A DNA stretch of 35,970 nt, taken from assembly GCA_023264615.1 (NCBI GenBank), contig JAHFLU010000003.1, positions 1-35,970 of the forward strand, written 5' to 3'. The first letter of the stretch is position 1. Every line of letters begins with the position of its first letter. Under the pieces are notes generated by a model that was not told where the DNA came from, made no database searches, and saw only the letters and a program-made list of their open reading frames with translations. The position numbers and the translations under genes were made by a program. Shown one piece after another: positions 12,464 through 29,961 of this stretch. Origin of the DNA: a bacterium. GTDB lineage: Bacteria; Patescibacteriota; Minisyncoccia; Phycocordibacterales; VMGT01.

Positions 12464-12498
12464 TTTGACAAAGAAACGCGTCAAGCGAGTAAGTCCTA
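12464..12498. repeat. Fragment of a repeat shared with the 28.6-kb element
   Basis: TTTGACAAAGAAACGCGTCA, continuing AGCGAGTAAGTCCTA, matches 28710-28744 at 30 of 35 positions by eye. It is the right end of the palindromic element there. No matching left arm or target duplication is visible near 12.4 kb, so it is a solo end or decayed copy. Its last bases (CTA) are the TAG stop of the GT4-GT9 gene. Confidence 0.6.
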
Positions 12499-14772
12499 CA
12501 TTGAATAATTTTTCAATACATACCCCGCAGCGTATAGTACATCTTCCACACTGCACGCATCAAGGGCCTTCTTATGCTCACTATCTTCCCCGCGCGCTTT
12601 AAACACAAAACTCGATGGATAAAATGGCGCAGGAGGAGTGACACATATGCTTTTCTTATCATGGGGAGGCTGCTCCCATGGATCGACGGGTCCCGTAATA
12701 TCAACAACCGGTACTCCCAAAGCATGTGCAATATAGACTGGACCGGTGTCAACTGCAATATACAGCGTGAGGGATTTGATCAATGCAGACAGCTCTTCGA
12801 GGGTAAAATGGGTGGCAATACTGTGTTGTTCTCCCGAGTTTGGAAGTGTCGCAACAAGTGCTTCAATCCGGCTCCGATCCTTCGCTCCGCCAATCCAAAC
12901 AATTTTTCCACCATGTCTTTCAACAAGCTGTTTCCCAACCTCGCCAAATCGGGCATCTCCCCATTCCTTAATCTTGTTCCCTGCCGTAATGCTTATCCCA
13001 ATGATAACATCAGTGGGACGTACGCCCTGTTCTTCTAGAAACACGCGTATTTGTTCTTTGGTTTCAGGCTTCATGTATACTTCTTTTGCAGGATATATGC
13101 TCTGAATGCCAGCATATTTGAGCATTTCGAGGTAAAACGCGGGAGCAAATGTATGGTGTTCGTACAGAACGGGAACGTTGTTAAGCCAGTCTGTTGTACG
13201 CTCCGCGAGAAAGCGCGGAAAATAGACAAGCTTAATCCGCGTCGGTATAAAACTCCAAAAAAAGAGTGAGCTCGAAAAGGCTGTTCCCGAAAACGAAAGA
13301 CCAACATCAAAAGACTTTTTCTGCAACATTCGCACAAACCGAAAAAGATGAAACTTATAGTCCTCGAGTACAATGAGCTCATCAATATACGGATTCCCCG
13401 CAAGTACCCCACCGGCTTTGCGAGATACAAGAACCGCAATAAAACTGTCGGGGTATGTTTTCTTGATTGTATGAAACACCGGCGTCGTGCATACAATATC
13501 GCCAATACGCGTAAGCTGCGGCATAATAAAAAAACGCTGCGGCCCTTTCCTCTTTCTCCTCCCTGAACGAATTTTTGAAAATACAAACGGTGCAAAGAAA
13601 AATGATATGCAAGTAAGAAACCATGTAAGAAAGCGTATCCGGAAATCCATTGTTATTGACTTTCGTTTACGTATCGGTGTTCGCGCCACCCTTGTAAGAA
13701 TCTCAAGTGTTTCCTTGCCACAGGTATCCCATGAAAAACGTTGGAGCTGGGCGGGACCTTTTGTCACAATTCCCCTCCGAAATATTTCATCGGTTGTAAG
13801 CCTCTCCATCGCACCTGCGATTTCCTCCGCATGATACGGATCAACAAGGACAGCAGCACCGTTCCCCCCAAGTTCAGCAGGACCAAAAATATTGGATGTA
13901 ATAGCGGGGATACCGCACGAGAGCGCTTCAAGAATAGGAAATCCTGTACCTTCTACAATACTCGGAAAGACTAATGCTTCTGCACGCTTATATACATACG
14001 AAAGCTCCGGTTCGTTGAGATGTCCCAAGAAATGAACTCTGTCTTCAATTCTTTCTTTGTCGATATATTTCTTCAATGTTGCATAATATTCGCCTTCACT
14101 CTTCCCGCCAATAACAAGATCGTGTACGAAGTCAGTATTTGCCTTTACGCATAGATTGAACGCCTGCACAATACGCAAGACATTTTTTCGTTCTTTAAGA
14201 GTCCCCGCAAAAAAGAAATACTTTTGCGGAAGAGGGAGTGAGGGTGCACGTTCCAAAACTTCGCATATTTTTTTGTACCCGTGATACACGACAGAAATTT
14301 TTTCTGCGGGAATATCGAAAAACCGCACTGTGTCGTTCTTTGTCGAATTTGACACCGCAATAATTTGATCGGCTCGGTGCATCGAATACCCGTGGTACCA
14401 GCCAATAAGAATACGTTTCAGGCGTTCGGAAAAATTCCGTGGTGCAAGATATTTATACGGATAATCAAGCGCTATGATGACGGACCGGCGTGGCTTAAAA
14501 AAGAGCGGTAGAACAGGCGTATTAAAAAGATATACATCGCAGGGGGTGGCGTACTTGAGGCGTGTCAGCCAGAGTCTTCCTGTTCCAAGTATTTCAGTAT
14601 GCCAATTTTTGCCTGGTAAATCCGGTTCTTGTTCCGGTTTTTCCTTAAGAAAAATCACGTACTCATTCTCCCTATCATTTTGCATCAGTGACTCCGCCCA
14701 ACCAAAAATAATCCTCGGAAGGCCACCGGGCTTTTTCTCACCGTACGGATGCATGATGATCCCTATTTTCAT
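12496..14772 (-). CDS. Two-domain glycosyltransferase: GT4 fused to GT9 (heptosyltransferase family)
   Basis: A 758-aa protein with two complete transferase domains in one frame. I start it at ATG 14772 (MKIGIIMHPYGEKKPGGLPR), whose ATGA overlaps the stop of the upstream GT4 gene. Residues 1 to about 370 are GT4: YFFFAGTLKERKNVLRIVQA and IVEGTGFPILEALSCGIPAI (EX7E intact). A hydrophobic stretch (FLTWFLTCISFFFAPFVF, about 385-405) then leads into GT9: RFFIMPQLTRIGDIVCTTPV, ISITAGNKIKEWGDARFGEV and YIAVDTGPVYIAHALGVPVV. GT9 enzymes add heptose or related sugars to lipopolysaccharide-like cores. The fusion implies two consecutive sugar additions held at the membrane. The stop codon lies on the edge of a repeat fragment. 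Confidence 0.87.
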   Translation of the reverse strand: MKIGIIMHPYGEKKPGGLPRIIFGWAESLMQNDRENEYVIFLKEKPEQEPDLPGKNWHTEILGTGRLWLTRLKYATPCDVYLFNTPVLPLFFKPRRSVIIALDYPYKYLAPRNFSERLKRILIGWYHGYSMHRADQIIAVSNSTKNDTVRFFDIPAEKISVVYHGYKKICEVLERAPSLPLPQKYFFFAGTLKERKNVLRIVQAFNLCVKANTDFVHDLVIGGKSEGEYYATLKKYIDKERIEDRVHFLGHLNEPELSYVYKRAEALVFPSIVEGTGFPILEALSCGIPAITSNIFGPAELGGNGAAVLVDPYHAEEIAGAMERLTTDEIFRRGIVTKGPAQLQRFSWDTCGKETLEILTRVARTPIRKRKSITMDFRIRFLTWFLTCISFFFAPFVFSKIRSGRRKRKGPQRFFIMPQLTRIGDIVCTTPVFHTIKKTYPDSFIAVLVSRKAGGVLAGNPYIDELIVLEDYKFHLFRFVRMLQKKSFDVGLSFSGTAFSSSLFFWSFIPTRIKLVYFPRFLAERTTDWLNNVPVLYEHHTFAPAFYLEMLKYAGIQSIYPAKEVYMKPETKEQIRVFLEEQGVRPTDVIIGISITAGNKIKEWGDARFGEVGKQLVERHGGKIVWIGGAKDRSRIEALVATLPNSGEQHSIATHFTLEELSALIKSLTLYIAVDTGPVYIAHALGVPVVDITGPVDPWEQPPHDKKSICVTPPAPFYPSSFVFKARGEDSEHKKALDACSVEDVLYAAGYVLKNYSM

Positions 14773-15899
14773 GAGCGTGTTGAGATGAATTGAATGATAC
14801 TTTTCGTTCTTTCCTCCCATGTATACTCTTTTGCTTTTTCTTTCCCGTACACAATTCGCTTCCGCACAGCATCTCCCTCCATCGATTCTTTAATTGCAAA
14901 AGCGAGCGCATGCGGATCGTCCGGTTCATAAAAGCACACTTCCCGCTCCGTAACGACCTCACGATTCGCGAGTGTACTACTCACAACCATCGGACGTAGA
15001 GATGCAAGAAATTCAAATATCTTCATCGGCGATGTCTCGGTATATGAATACTGATTCGATTTTGTCCCCAGTACAAGCACGACATCCGCAGCCGAAACCC
15101 ACGACGGAACATCTCGGAAAGGTTTATGTCCGACACAGACAACATTTTCAGGTATTTTTTGTACCCCCGTTGCCATGCGGAATCCTTCCTCTGTCCCGCC
15201 CACCATATAAAACAATATCTCCGGGAGCATCGCTGCCGTTTGAGCGATAATCCCTAAACCTTTCCAGTCATAAAACTGTCCTGTATGTACGGCAACCACG
15301 CGCTCTAGAGAAAGTCCGAGGGCCATGCGGGCTTCCCTTTTCGACAAACGAGAAGGAAACAATTTTGGATCGATACCATTCGGTGCCGTTATACTCTTTT
15401 CTTGCGGAATACGAAAATCTGCACGAAACCGCGCAGCAACAGCGCGGCTGTTCGTTATAATGCCCCGCACACGTCTGACAAAAAAAGAGAGCATGGGACT
15501 TTTCCTCTTGCTCCCATGTACTTCAAAAAATACAGGCACAGAAAGAAGCGGGAGAAGAAAAAAAGAAAATTGATCAAGATCAATCGTATATACTATTGCT
15601 TTTTCTCTACGAACTTTGAAAAAAAGATACAGAAACGATGTGATGCAAAAAGAGAGAGACTTCAGGTTGAACGCAATGCCGCTCTTTCCACAGAGAAGAA
15701 CCGGTACTCGGCGAATGGGTATATTTTCCTCAAGCGCATAGAAATCTTCGATGGAGTCGCAGAGCGGATTATGCTGTCGGGGCAGAATCAATTCAAGATC
15801 AATACCTGCTGCAACAAAAGCCTCGCATTGTTTTGCGAGTTGGATTCCATGTGCTTTTTCGTTCGGCATCCGTGCGTTGGCAACGTAGTACATCTTCAT
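14769..15899 (-). CDS. GT4 family glycosyltransferase
   Basis: A 376-aa GT4 enzyme. I prefer ATG 15899 (MKMYYVANARMPNEKAHGIQ) to 15920, since the family begins this way with its N-terminal beta strand; AAGG precedes it at 3 nt, and at 9 nt before a second ATG (15893). Motifs: EKAHGIQLAKQCEAFVAAGI near the N-terminus, RVVAVHTGQFYDWKGLGIIA at the domain junction, and ETSPMKIFEFLASLRPMVVS containing EX7E. It is coupled by ATGA to the GT4-GT9 fusion. A possible promoter (TATGAT or TATAGT, near 15925) lies between this gene and the long hairpin at 15979-16071, so it may start a transcription unit. Confidence 0.87.
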   Translation of the reverse strand: MKMYYVANARMPNEKAHGIQLAKQCEAFVAAGIDLELILPRQHNPLCDSIEDFYALEENIPIRRVPVLLCGKSGIAFNLKSLSFCITSFLYLFFKVRREKAIVYTIDLDQFSFFLLPLLSVPVFFEVHGSKRKSPMLSFFVRRVRGIITNSRAVAARFRADFRIPQEKSITAPNGIDPKLFPSRLSKREARMALGLSLERVVAVHTGQFYDWKGLGIIAQTAAMLPEILFYMVGGTEEGFRMATGVQKIPENVVCVGHKPFRDVPSWVSAADVVLVLGTKSNQYSYTETSPMKIFEFLASLRPMVVSSTLANREVVTEREVCFYEPDDPHALAFAIKESMEGDAVRKRIVYGKEKAKEYTWEERTKSIIQFISTRS

Positions 15900-26318: not shown

Positions 26319-28514
26319 TTATTTCGGTGGTTCGCCACGAAGAACGCGCTTGAGTACATCTTCCGGAATTTCCTCTGGTCCTTGCTTTGGCATTTCTTTT
26401 TTAATCGAAGACTGATCGACAGGTGTATCTTTCTTCTCTTCACTCCGCGTCTCCTCTCGCACAGGTGCAGGCGCTTGTTGTTTTGGCGTGGGAGCTATTT
26501 GATCTGCAGAAATATTTTCTTTCTTTTCCTCTCGAATAGATACTGACGTCCTTTCAAAACCCTGTTCCTTTCTCTCTGGAATAGCTTCCTTTTTCGTTTC
26601 TGTCACATGTGAAGCATTTTTAAGAACAGCAGAAAGAGCCGCTTTAAGACCTGTCAGGTTTTTCTCGGATGGTCCTTTGTCTTTCGTCGTGTTACTGTGC
26701 ATCTGCGTCTGTGGAACTTTTCTCTCTTCCTTTTGAGCTTGAGCGGGAGGTTCTATTTCTCTTTTCTCATGCTCTTTTTGCGGAACATTTGAAACAACAT
26801 GGGGCTCTGAAACATTTGAAAGCGCCTGTGCAAACGGCGTATGTACATTCGGGGGACGCACTGGGCTTGGTGCGGCGCGTTCATCACTTTTTTCTCTGTG
26901 CTCGGAAGAATGCGGGGCAGATTCCGCATGCGGGCGATTGGATTCCTCGTGCAGCACGCGCATCGGGGGTCGCTCGTGACGCGGCGAGTGAATATGCTCG
27001 CTTGGCTGATACCGTGAATGTTCACTCGGAGCACGGTAGGAATTTTCTCTCGCTCCGCCACGAAAATCGTCTCCTCTTCGCACAACCGGTCCCTCTGTCG
27101 GACGAGCCGGACGACGAAAATCTTCGCTTGGGGAAGCACTCGACGTTCTCCGCTCCTGCCGTTCTTGCCACTCCTGTTGCCGCTTTTCCACTTTCTCACC
27201 CATTTCAACTTGCCGCTGTGATGTATACTCTTCTTTTACCGCAGCCTCAATCGCATCGCGCGGATTCGAAAACATTTTCCTCGAATATTCAATAACTGCA
27301 TCTTTTGAAGAAATACTAGGCTGCTTGATCGGCGGCAATGTTTCCGCAGAAAACGGTTTCGAACCGATCCCATTAATCATCAGTTTCAGATAAATCTGGG
27401 CAAAACCAAGATTGACAAGATCTTGCGCAGTAAATTGGGGCGCAAACTCTTTTTCGAGCACCTCTGCGTCGTACGCACCCACACGAAATGTAATCATCGT
27501 ACCGACATTTCCAAAAACGGCATTGCGCACCTCCTCTGACATCTGCTCGATGTATTGATGTGCCATCGTCAGATTAAGTTTGTATTTCCGAGCTTCCGAG
27601 AGAATGTCCGCAAACGACTCGTTCGCAAACGACTGAAACTCATCAACATAAAAATAGAAGTTGGGCAGACGTTCAAGCGCTCCCGGAGAAACATCAGCGC
27701 GTGACATCGCGGCAAGATAAATCTTCGTAATAAGCATGCTTCCGAGAAGATTGGCATTCTGTTCGCCCACCTTTCCCTTTGACAGGTTCACAATGAGTAT
27801 TTTGCGATTATCAACAATTTTGCGAAGATCAAATGTCGATTTCGCCTGTCCAACAATATTTCTGATGAGCGGATTTCCCGTGAACTGCCCGATTTTATTC
27901 TGTATAGCAGGAGTCGCCTCTTGTGTGTATCGGTCAGTATAGGTAGCAAACTCATCTACCCAAAATGATTTCACGAGCGGATCTTTAATATTTTCAACTA
28001 CCTTTTTTCGGTAGTTTTTATCTGTATACATTTTATTGACACCAAGCATCGTCGCATCCGGATATTCAAGAAGTGCAAGCAGCGTATTCGTCAGAATATA
28101 TTCCATTCGGGCAGACCATGCATCAAGCCAAATCTTTTTGAATGCGCTCATAAGCCCACTCACCACGAGATGTCGCTTGTCATACCCAACATCTTCCATC
28201 ACATTAAACGAAATGGGGTGGTCGAGATCGAATGGGGCAAAATACAAAACATCCTCTATTCGTTCTTCCGGAATATACTCGAGAAGCAGCTCGGCAGTCT
28301 TGCCGTGGGGATCAACAAAACAAAATCCTTCACCGTTCTTAATATCTTGCACCGCCATATTTTCAAGAAGCGTTGATTTCCCCATTCCTGTTTTTCCGAT
28401 CACATACACATGTCGTGTTCGATCGTTTGCTTTAATACCAAAAGGAACGAGCTTGTTCCGTGCATCGGTCTTTGCAAAGTAGGTAACCCGTTCAGGATCC
28501 GAGATATATTCCAT
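26319..28514 (-). CDS. VirD4/TraG-like type IV secretion ATPase with long disordered tail
   Basis: A 731-aa P-loop ATPase. Walker A is in YVIGKTGMGKSTLLENM (about residues 37-53), followed by FCFVDPHGKTAELL. LPNFYFYVDEFQSFANESFA carries Walker B, and NLTMAHQYIEQMSEEVRNAV is the sensor-like strand typical of VirD4/TraG/HerA-FtsK-type DNA pumps. There is no N-terminal membrane helix, unlike classical VirD4. From about residue 430 to the end it is Arg/Glu/Pro/Ser-rich and probably disordered, ending EEIPEDVLKRVLRGEPPK. Related proteins are common in Patescibacteria and may drive DNA or protein transfer or serve type IV pili; the substrate is unknown. A TATACT -10 lies 8 nt before the ATG. Confidence 0.85.
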   Translation of the reverse strand: MEYISDPERVTYFAKTDARNKLVPFGIKANDRTRHVYVIGKTGMGKSTLLENMAVQDIKNGEGFCFVDPHGKTAELLLEYIPEERIEDVLYFAPFDLDHPISFNVMEDVGYDKRHLVVSGLMSAFKKIWLDAWSARMEYILTNTLLALLEYPDATMLGVNKMYTDKNYRKKVVENIKDPLVKSFWVDEFATYTDRYTQEATPAIQNKIGQFTGNPLIRNIVGQAKSTFDLRKIVDNRKILIVNLSKGKVGEQNANLLGSMLITKIYLAAMSRADVSPGALERLPNFYFYVDEFQSFANESFADILSEARKYKLNLTMAHQYIEQMSEEVRNAVFGNVGTMITFRVGAYDAEVLEKEFAPQFTAQDLVNLGFAQIYLKLMINGIGSKPFSAETLPPIKQPSISSKDAVIEYSRKMFSNPRDAIEAAVKEEYTSQRQVEMGEKVEKRQQEWQERQERRTSSASPSEDFRRPARPTEGPVVRRGDDFRGGARENSYRAPSEHSRYQPSEHIHSPRHERPPMRVLHEESNRPHAESAPHSSEHREKSDERAAPSPVRPPNVHTPFAQALSNVSEPHVVSNVPQKEHEKREIEPPAQAQKEERKVPQTQMHSNTTKDKGPSEKNLTGLKAALSAVLKNASHVTETKKEAIPERKEQGFERTSVSIREEKKENISADQIAPTPKQQAPAPVREETRSEEKKDTPVDQSSIKKEMPKQGPEEIPEDVLKRVLRGEPPK

Positions 28515-28615: not shown

Positions 28616-28750
28616 AACCTATAGGACGTACGCACTTGGATGCAGTTCGAGGAAAAACGAGAAGCGGAGCAAGCCGTATTCCTTATACGGCGATGCGAGC
28701 ATCGCACGTTTTGACAAAGAAATGCGCCAAGTGTGTACGTCCTAACCTAT
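28616..28750. mobile_element. 121-bp palindromic MITE-like element with 7-bp target duplication
   Basis: The inverted ends AGGACGTACGCACTTGG (28623-28639) and CCAAGTGTGTACGTCCT (28727-28743) match at 16 of 17 positions. They are flanked by identical AACCTAT direct repeats (28616-28622 and 28744-28750), a target-site duplication. The inside holds two further hairpins, GCCGTAT/ATACGGC and GATGC/GCATC, and no gene. Its right end is shared with a fragment at 12464-12498. The right copy of the duplication contains the TAG stop of the DUF4015 gene. It is a non-autonomous element needing a transposase from elsewhere. Confidence 0.8.
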
Positions 28751-29961
28751 TCAGGCAGCAACGCTCCTGCTGTGTACTTGTTCGCTGCATTCCAGAGCAT
28801 CCAAGATGTCAGACCAGCATCATACGCGGCTTGCATCTGCGCCCGCACCATCTCAGCCGTGTAGTCTGCACCAAGGTCGAAATCTTGGAGCCATGGGCGA
28901 ATCTGCCCGAAATGCACCTTCGCTTCCCGCGACTCCGGCGTCGTAGAAGCGCTCCACGCAAGCGCTTTCACTTTTTCATGCGCACGATCCATCGAAAACT
29001 TCACCACATCATAGGGTACTTTCGCAGGAGCCGGATATCCGTTGAAACCTGCCGGGTAATGCGATGGATACACCATCGGACCGATATAATCAAAATATGG
29101 CAGTGCATATTCAAGTTTCTGTCCGATGTTAAGATCATCTGCATTGGTTGTCACCATGCCAAAAAGATCCGCAGAAAGGATCGCGCCGGAACTACCGAGT
29201 TCCTGCCGCAGATATGCATAAAATTCCTTCATCACAAGCGCTTTTGTTTTTCCCTCACTAAACGGATACGCGATGTTGTACATATCACCATCCGACGGAA
29301 AACGAATATAGTCAAAATTGAGTTCGTCGAATCCGTATGCATACGCCTGCTTGCCGATCGCCACATCGTAATCCCAAGCCTCTTTGGCACCGGCATCGAT
29401 CCAGCTGATGCCTTTACGGTCTTTCCACACAGCACCATCACTTGACCGTTTGACCGCAAGATCAGGGCGCAATTTCACCAAGCGCGGATCCTGAAAAACG
29501 GAAATTCTTCCGATAACATAAATACCTTTGCTATGCAGATATTCAATAAATTCCTTAATATCAGGGATGCGTTCTTCAACAGAATCAAACTTCTTTAGAT
29601 ATGGGTCATCAACGGCAAACGCAATCATGCCCGTATAATCTTTTATATCGATTACGAGCGCATTTGCCTCGGTCGTGTTTACCAGGTTTACAACGCGATT
29701 TCGAATATCCCTCGTTCCCGCAACCCAGCTTGTCATATAGAGTGCCTTCACCGAAGGTGGTGTTGTGACGTGCGTCGCTTTCCAAACCGGTGGCAAAGGG
29801 ACAGCAGAAACAGCCGCAACTGTTTCTGCTGTACTAGCCACCGGCAGTACAGAAACTCCTGCATCGTATGAAACAATTGAAAACATCGGCAAAATAAAAT
29901 ACGCGATCGGCAAAAAACCGATCAAAGATGCGACAAACATCAGGCACTGTTTTAATTTCAT
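28747..29961 (-). CDS. DUF4015 putative glycoside hydrolase, membrane anchored
   Basis: A 404-aa protein with an N-terminal signal anchor (CLMFVASLIGFLPIAYFILP) and a TIM-barrel-like domain of the DUF4015 group of putative glycosidases. Visible barrel segments: VKALYMTSWVAGTRDIRNRV, NALVIDIKDYTGMIAF, GIYVIGRISVFQDPRLVKL, GFDELNFDYIRFPSDGDMYN, ILSADLFGMVT and YFDYIGPMVYPSHYPAGFNG. The Asp/Glu pairs in DIKDY and DELNFDYIRFP are candidate catalytic or substrate residues. Family members are thought to act on extracellular polysaccharide, so it may trim the surface glycan or cell wall. GGAG lies 6 nt before the ATG. Its stop codon lies in the target duplication of the adjacent palindromic element. 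Confidence 0.88.
   Translation of the reverse strand: MKLKQCLMFVASLIGFLPIAYFILPMFSIVSYDAGVSVLPVASTAETVAAVSAVPLPPVWKATHVTTPPSVKALYMTSWVAGTRDIRNRVVNLVNTTEANALVIDIKDYTGMIAFAVDDPYLKKFDSVEERIPDIKEFIEYLHSKGIYVIGRISVFQDPRLVKLRPDLAVKRSSDGAVWKDRKGISWIDAGAKEAWDYDVAIGKQAYAYGFDELNFDYIRFPSDGDMYNIAYPFSEGKTKALVMKEFYAYLRQELGSSGAILSADLFGMVTTNADDLNIGQKLEYALPYFDYIGPMVYPSHYPAGFNGYPAPAKVPYDVVKFSMDRAHEKVKALAWSASTTPESREAKVHFGQIRPWLQDFDLGADYTAEMVRAQMQAAYDAGLTSWMLWNAANKYTAGALLPE

Follow-up and report, generated by a model that had tools for sequence, protein, structure and literature searches.

A probable IS701-type MITE with a hairpin fold and oriented placement at stop codons in Patescibacteria

In the window (the whole stretch of 35,970 nucleotides analysed here), a palindrome without coding capacity lies directly behind the stop codon of a putative glycosyl hydrolase gene, and the same short repeat stands on both of its sides. 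What kind of element is it, and is the hairpin merely carried by the cell or used by it? The features of the locus are as follows.

28622..28744, plus strand: whole element, 123 bp, with the ends TAGGACGTACGCACTTGG...CCAAGTGTGTACGTCCTA; oriented by covariance model R1
28617..28621: left copy of the target site duplication, 5 bp, ACCTA
28745..28749: right copy of the target site duplication, 5 bp, ACCTA; the DUF4015 gene has its stop codon inside this copy
28622..28639, plus strand: outer hairpin arm, which is the left terminal inverted repeat; also compared with insertion sequence ends
28727..28744, plus strand: outer hairpin arm, which is the right terminal inverted repeat
28673..28691, plus strand: central 7-bp stem (28673-28679 with 28685-28691) and loop; all seven pairs are changed on both sides across the family
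28747..29961, minus strand: gene for a putative glycosyl hydrolase (DUF4015) that reads into the element; Pfam PF13200, 312 bits
28747..28749, minus strand: stop codon (TAG) of the putative hydrolase gene, within the duplication and 2 bp outside the element
26319..28514, minus strand: gene for a VirD4/TraD-like coupling ATPase, the next gene in the same direction; Pfam PF10412 and PF02534
12464..12498, plus strand: remnant of a further member of the family, of which the right end is left; it closes with CTA, which reads TAG on the minus strand

The palindrome is near-perfect, as had been annotated initially: in the outer arms, 17 of 18 bases face their complement, and, compared with dinucleotide-preserving shuffles, the fold is unusually stable both as RNA (-64.4 kcal/mol, z -9.6) and as DNA (z -7.4). 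The covariance model R1 scores the element at 103.4 bits on the plus strand vs. 35.6 bits on the minus strand. The element had been described as 121 bp long with a perfect 7-bp target site duplication. AACCTAT is indeed present on both sides (28616-28622 and 28744-28750), but comparison with the relatives shows that the duplication is 5 bp long, ACCTA. Of 74 distinct elements with both ends, 34 are directly flanked by an exact 5-bp repeat, compared to 0.69 expected after flank shuffling, while repeats of 4, 6, and 7 bp numbered three, none, and one, respectively; the single 7-bp case does not establish a 7-bp rule. The two bases by which the longer repeat exceeds ACCTA, a T and an A, are, on each side, one base of the element and one chance match. 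With its own terminal T and A included, the element is 123 bp long. Of the two internal hairpins originally proposed, the central one is a feature of the family, but the GCGATGC/GCATCGC one needs a base private to the window copy, which has GCGATGC where other copies have GCGACGC. No plausible coding role was found for 28622-28744, in agreement with the first description.

Copies and insertion sequence partner

The assembly that contains the window comprises 1,026,536 bases in 83 contigs and is 94% complete. A DNA search of the whole assembly, with all contigs read, yielded many copies at 90–98% identity, and the covariance model identified 24 near-complete members on the model strand: 20 scored at least 86 bits and count as close copies, and four were more diverged. 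The suspected repeat family is thereby confirmed. Among the 19 two-ended copies counted, nine had perfect 5-bp duplications, each of them different (ACCTA, TTCTA, TAGAC, CATCA, and AAATA are examples). The related end fragment noticed elsewhere in the window is also real: it is the remnant at 12464-12498, and the gene at 12496-14820 on the minus strand uses the terminal TAG of this remnant as its stop codon. In a sister species of the same genus, the corresponding intergenic gap lacks the window insertion and carries a different, diverged family member at another spot. The copies, the differing duplications, and the gap lacking this insertion all support a recently moved non-autonomous element; a single copy in a fixed place, named beforehand as the refuting outcome, is not what was found.

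Several variant forms were seen. Four of the 20 close copies are 204 bp long because of an additional palindromic insert of 81 bp (G000:C12:12366-12569, C12:20607-20810, C28:2954-3157, and C67:7491-7694); the sister species has a similar 202-bp form, and L066 also belongs with these. A diverged member scoring 72.6 bits (L029, G000:C15:194-320) lies near an apparent 23S rRNA 5' end, probably in an rRNA spacer. Minimal forms of 55 and 61 bp were also observed (L096:1985-2039 in G025; L069 and L077 in G002).

The element had been thought to resemble no described element in its ends. This does not hold, as the ends match those of IS701-type insertion sequences (IS). The ends of the copies in this genome, TAGGACKTACGCACTTGG, match the ends of an intact 1049-bp IS701-type (ISAba11-like) IS from another species of the same order. 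Scanning the order for the end TAGGACTTACGCA, we obtained matches in 30 of 397 genomes. In one of them (G379:C4:6071-7119; Parcubacteria group bacterium Greene0416_79 according to the transposase record), two inward-facing ends enclose 1049 bp with a single gene for a 323-aa transposase, and the 18-bp IS end, TAGGACTTACGCACTTTG, is like TAGGACKTACGCACTTGG except for one base. The transposase matches NCBIfam NF049921 (IS701_2) at 347 bits, with the curated cutoff at 250, as well as Pfam DDE_Tnp_1 and DDE_5, and is ∼33–34% identical to ISAba11-family transposases. The flanks of this IS, TTTAT and ATATA, form no matching duplication. IS701 relatives with similar ends in Methanosarcina, Meiothermus, and two cyanobacteria have perfect 5-bp duplications (ATGGT, GCGGA, ATGCT, and TAGGA), and ISAba11 itself leaves 5-bp repeats (PMC7885321); an ISMesi2 copy had a 7-bp repeat instead of a 5-bp one.

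Thus, a transposase with the same ends exists in another species, but none was found in the own assembly: tblastn for an IS701 transposase gave only chance fragments (E 2.5–9), a DDE_Tnp_1 search of the genome gave no match, and the contig ends, checked for collapsed IS copies, carried no IS701 ends outside copies of the element. Across the order, IS701 transposases were detected in 15 of 397 genomes at E≤0.001, two of them above the cutoff. In one genome (G161; L128 and L131-L134), five contigs begin in the same 3' end of an IS701 transposase gene and continue into different flanks, as in a multi-copy IS collapsed in assembly. An exact TAGGACTTACGCACTTGG end was observed near the end of a viral contig (IMGVR_UViG_3300046710_000257, L248:14912-14929).

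Since its ends are common to an intact IS and no transposase that would go with them was found in the assembly, we class the window element as a MITE, with an ISAba11-like IS of the IS701 type as its probable partner. It is short, has terminal inverted repeats, and lacks a transposase gene; the family occupies many unrelated sites with duplications constant in length (5 bp) and differing in sequence, and its ends are those of an autonomous IS. An autonomous partner was not found in the same genome. MITEs without a resident partner are known, so that its absence lowers mainly the claim of present mobility. As no IS701 transposase was found in the assembly, its having moved the window copy is something that we infer. 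An IS701 DDE transposase supplied in trans would recognise the TAGGACNTACGCA ends and insert the element with a 5-bp duplication. The initial reading as a mobile non-autonomous repeat family therefore stands, but the length of the duplication and the supposed novelty of the ends do not.

Among the IS701 group, ISAba11 is comparable in its 5-bp duplication (PMC7885321), and the partner IS, whose transposase is the one that matches NF049921, is comparable in its ends, TAGGACTTACGCA; the comparison of ends is with this partner IS. Unlike these insertion sequences, the window element lacks a gene for a transposase and has about one ninth of the length. Another comparable element is MITEAba12, described in the available part of its source as a 113-bp MITE having 16-bp imperfect ends in common with an IS and keeping duplications in 40% of the copies (PMC6382973), similar to 34 of 74 in our family. 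By contrast, the same text gives it a parent, ISAba12, that is co-resident in the genome and 9-bp duplications, and notes neither placement at stop codons nor compensation between the arms. Like the family described here, REP/REPIN sequences, moved by RAYT transposases, are short palindromes with many intergenic copies, but REPINs are not known to make a target duplication, while 5-bp duplications are formed here. Our literature search for the end sequence returned only an unrelated human paper, and no paper was found on MITEs in Patescibacteria or on IS701 MITEs.

Structure and pairing across the family

The surprising part is the structure and placement of the family as a whole: it is order-wide, each copy keeps a hairpin of its own, and copies stand in one orientation at stop codons. 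Of the 397 genomes sampled from the order, the covariance model detected members in 149 with a threshold of E≤1e-4 and in 82 with one of E≤1e-15, and it also found them in some other classes of the Patescibacteria phylum. As a true copy gives 26–42 bits even when read on its reverse strand, matches below ∼45 bits were not relied on. In an alignment of 22 distinct members from eight genomes, 96% of the cells pair in the consensus structure, compared to 86% in shuffled and 27–42% in slid alignments, and 18 of the 34 pairs, including those of the central stem, have changes on both sides. A search of Rfam 15 gave no match in the element; a chance mir-263 match lies outside it and below the gathering score.

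In four genomes (G029, G071, G143, and G103), the outer arms differ in sequence from copy to copy. Between copies, the arms are only 57–65% identical, yet the two arms of one copy form Watson–Crick pairs at 87–93% of positions vs. 57–62% with the arms of other copies, a value reached in none of the 5000 permutations in each genome. Because the covariance model rewards pairing, we repeated the analysis on a sample collected with a pattern blind to the arms; all 12 family members in it had at least 76% paired arms, while two chance matches had 18 and 24%. This suggests that the hairpin is used by the cells rather than merely carried. Different transposases were considered as a cause of the differences in the arms between genomes, and dropped, as copies within one genome also differ. 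Our search for orthologous copies found no shared flanks among the sampled loci of G029, G107, and G252.

Arms could also be matched by mutation without selection, if template switching between the imperfect inverted repeats during replication copied one arm onto the other. This process is known to create and maintain hairpins (PMC8794818) and could have produced a part of the compensation. However, it should erase internal mismatches, and these persist: the 1x1 G–A, 2x3, and 2x2 purine-rich loops are unpaired in 29–34 of 34 copies, with their bases conserved and the neighbouring stems rewritten. On this ground we favour selection on the shape. As template switching also leaves the placement and orientation at stop codons (see below) unexplained, we regard it as an unlikely account of the arms.

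Placement at gene 3' ends and possible function

To describe the placement, we defined gene ends by open reading frames instead of using a gene caller. Among 79 copies with context, 31 lie at most 12 bp from the stop codon of the right-hand gene (in the model orientation) that reads into the element, vs. four copies adjacent to a stop codon in the opposite sense. For random intergenic points, in a control drawn from the own genome only, the fractions are 8.2 and 6.6% for the two senses. Both the enrichment at stop codons (p 4e-14) and the orientation bias (p 3e-6) are significant. The effect of age is not, as stop codons are adjacent to 6 of 24 copies with intact duplications and to 25 of 55 others (p 0.13). 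Since the ends of the element are alike, neither the transposase nor a stop codon carried by the element predicts the bias. Of the two strands of the hairpin, the one present in the upstream mRNA folds less stably.

A functionless MITE, moved by an IS701 transposase, surviving where it is harmless, and retaining matched arms from a recent ancestor, would fit the own genome, where most copies are 93–98% identical and many have duplications, and it is common for MITEs to be intergenic. Still, independent decay of the two arms cannot yield the own-arm pairing of the four genomes with diverged copies, and symmetric ends give no reason for the bias of 31 vs. four. We therefore consider this account rather improbable.

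The explanation that we prefer, and hold to be probable, is that of an IS701-type MITE whose hairpin copies at gene 3' ends are retained for an orientation-specific effect on the upstream transcript. The element would spread by transposition and persist best as an orientation-specific hairpin at the 3' end of a gene. There, the hairpin may act on the upstream transcript by 3'-end processing, protection, or decay, similarly to ERIC; copies so placed would be kept for this action, and mutations in one arm would then be compensated in the other. We infer that the function is at gene 3' ends, with RNA as the active molecule and an effect on expression.

By description, the closest known analogue is ERIC (enterobacterial repetitive intergenic consensus), together with YPAL, Correia/NEMIS, and RUP, although we do not claim the window element as a member. 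These are small imperfect palindromes, MITE-like and intergenic in the accounts available to us, and ERIC, according to the accessible parts of two papers, is a 127-bp imperfect palindrome of this kind, which has an effect on the upstream mRNA when it lies at the 3' end of a gene, with the orientation being crucial (PMC2229807, PMC10969869). Our family resembles ERIC in placement, though not necessarily in effect, as it is found at gene 3' ends and depends on orientation. On the other hand, ERIC has a different sequence, different hosts, and a different core. The same accounts give 5'-TA termini for ERIC, Correia, and RUP, while the family studied here has the IS701-type 5-bp duplication; they contain no mention of per-copy arm compensation or conserved purine loops in the ERIC group.

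The strand opposite to the upstream mRNA might instead encode a structured small RNA, antisense to the gene 3' end. In 47 of 49 copies it is the model strand that gives the better fold, and conserved purine loops such as it has are typical of structured RNA, but no promoter-like site was found inside or near the window copy and, as noted, there is no Rfam match, which makes such an RNA a rather doubtful candidate. An intrinsic transcription terminator spread by transposition would agree with the very stable stem directly behind stop codons, but is very unlikely, as the window element contains no predicted terminator, most copies in the sampled genomes lie between co-directional rather than convergent genes, and flanking T-runs are no family feature in the copies inspected.

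A wider claim, which we advance tentatively as a serious possibility, is that hairpins spread by IS701-type ends and recruited as orientation-specific elements at gene 3' ends form a phylum-wide class in Patescibacteria, with selection on the shape and the loop bases and not on the stem sequence. If true, these tiny genomes would share a post-transcriptional control element. The genomes of Patescibacteria are very small, and their gene regulation is poorly understood; a hairpin that occurs in between about one fifth and one third of the genomes sampled from the order, is preserved in each copy, and often stands at stop codons in one orientation would be a handle on mRNA processing. Moreover, as the same group contains both young copies, with clean duplications, and old ones, rewritten but still paired, the family offers a natural test of the transition from selfish to functional DNA.

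Other cargoes of the same ends

The core of the window element is one of several cargoes, as the same ends carry other cores. In G001, G025, G347, and other genomes, TAGGAC ends enclose a GTCATTCCCG...GGGAATCCAG or GTCATTGCGAG...GAAGCAATCCAG hairpin, and several of these elements have perfect 5-bp duplications. Unrelated hairpin cores between TAGGAC ends, GTCATTCCCGC...GGGAATCCAG or GTCATTGCGAG...GAAGCAATCCAG, were seen at L097 (G001:C20:1181-1312), L104, L107, L114, and L085. The 55-bp minimal form resembles the flanks of the elements with the GTCATTCCCG core and may represent the form before the core insertion. A second palindromic element, with ends like AGAGCCTGTCCACGATCTC...GATCGTGGACAGGCTCT, is nested in elements with IS701 ends in G001 (L100:2192-2493 and L102:2179-2452), and sequences similar to it are present at the ends of three contigs of the own assembly (C6, C29, and C62).
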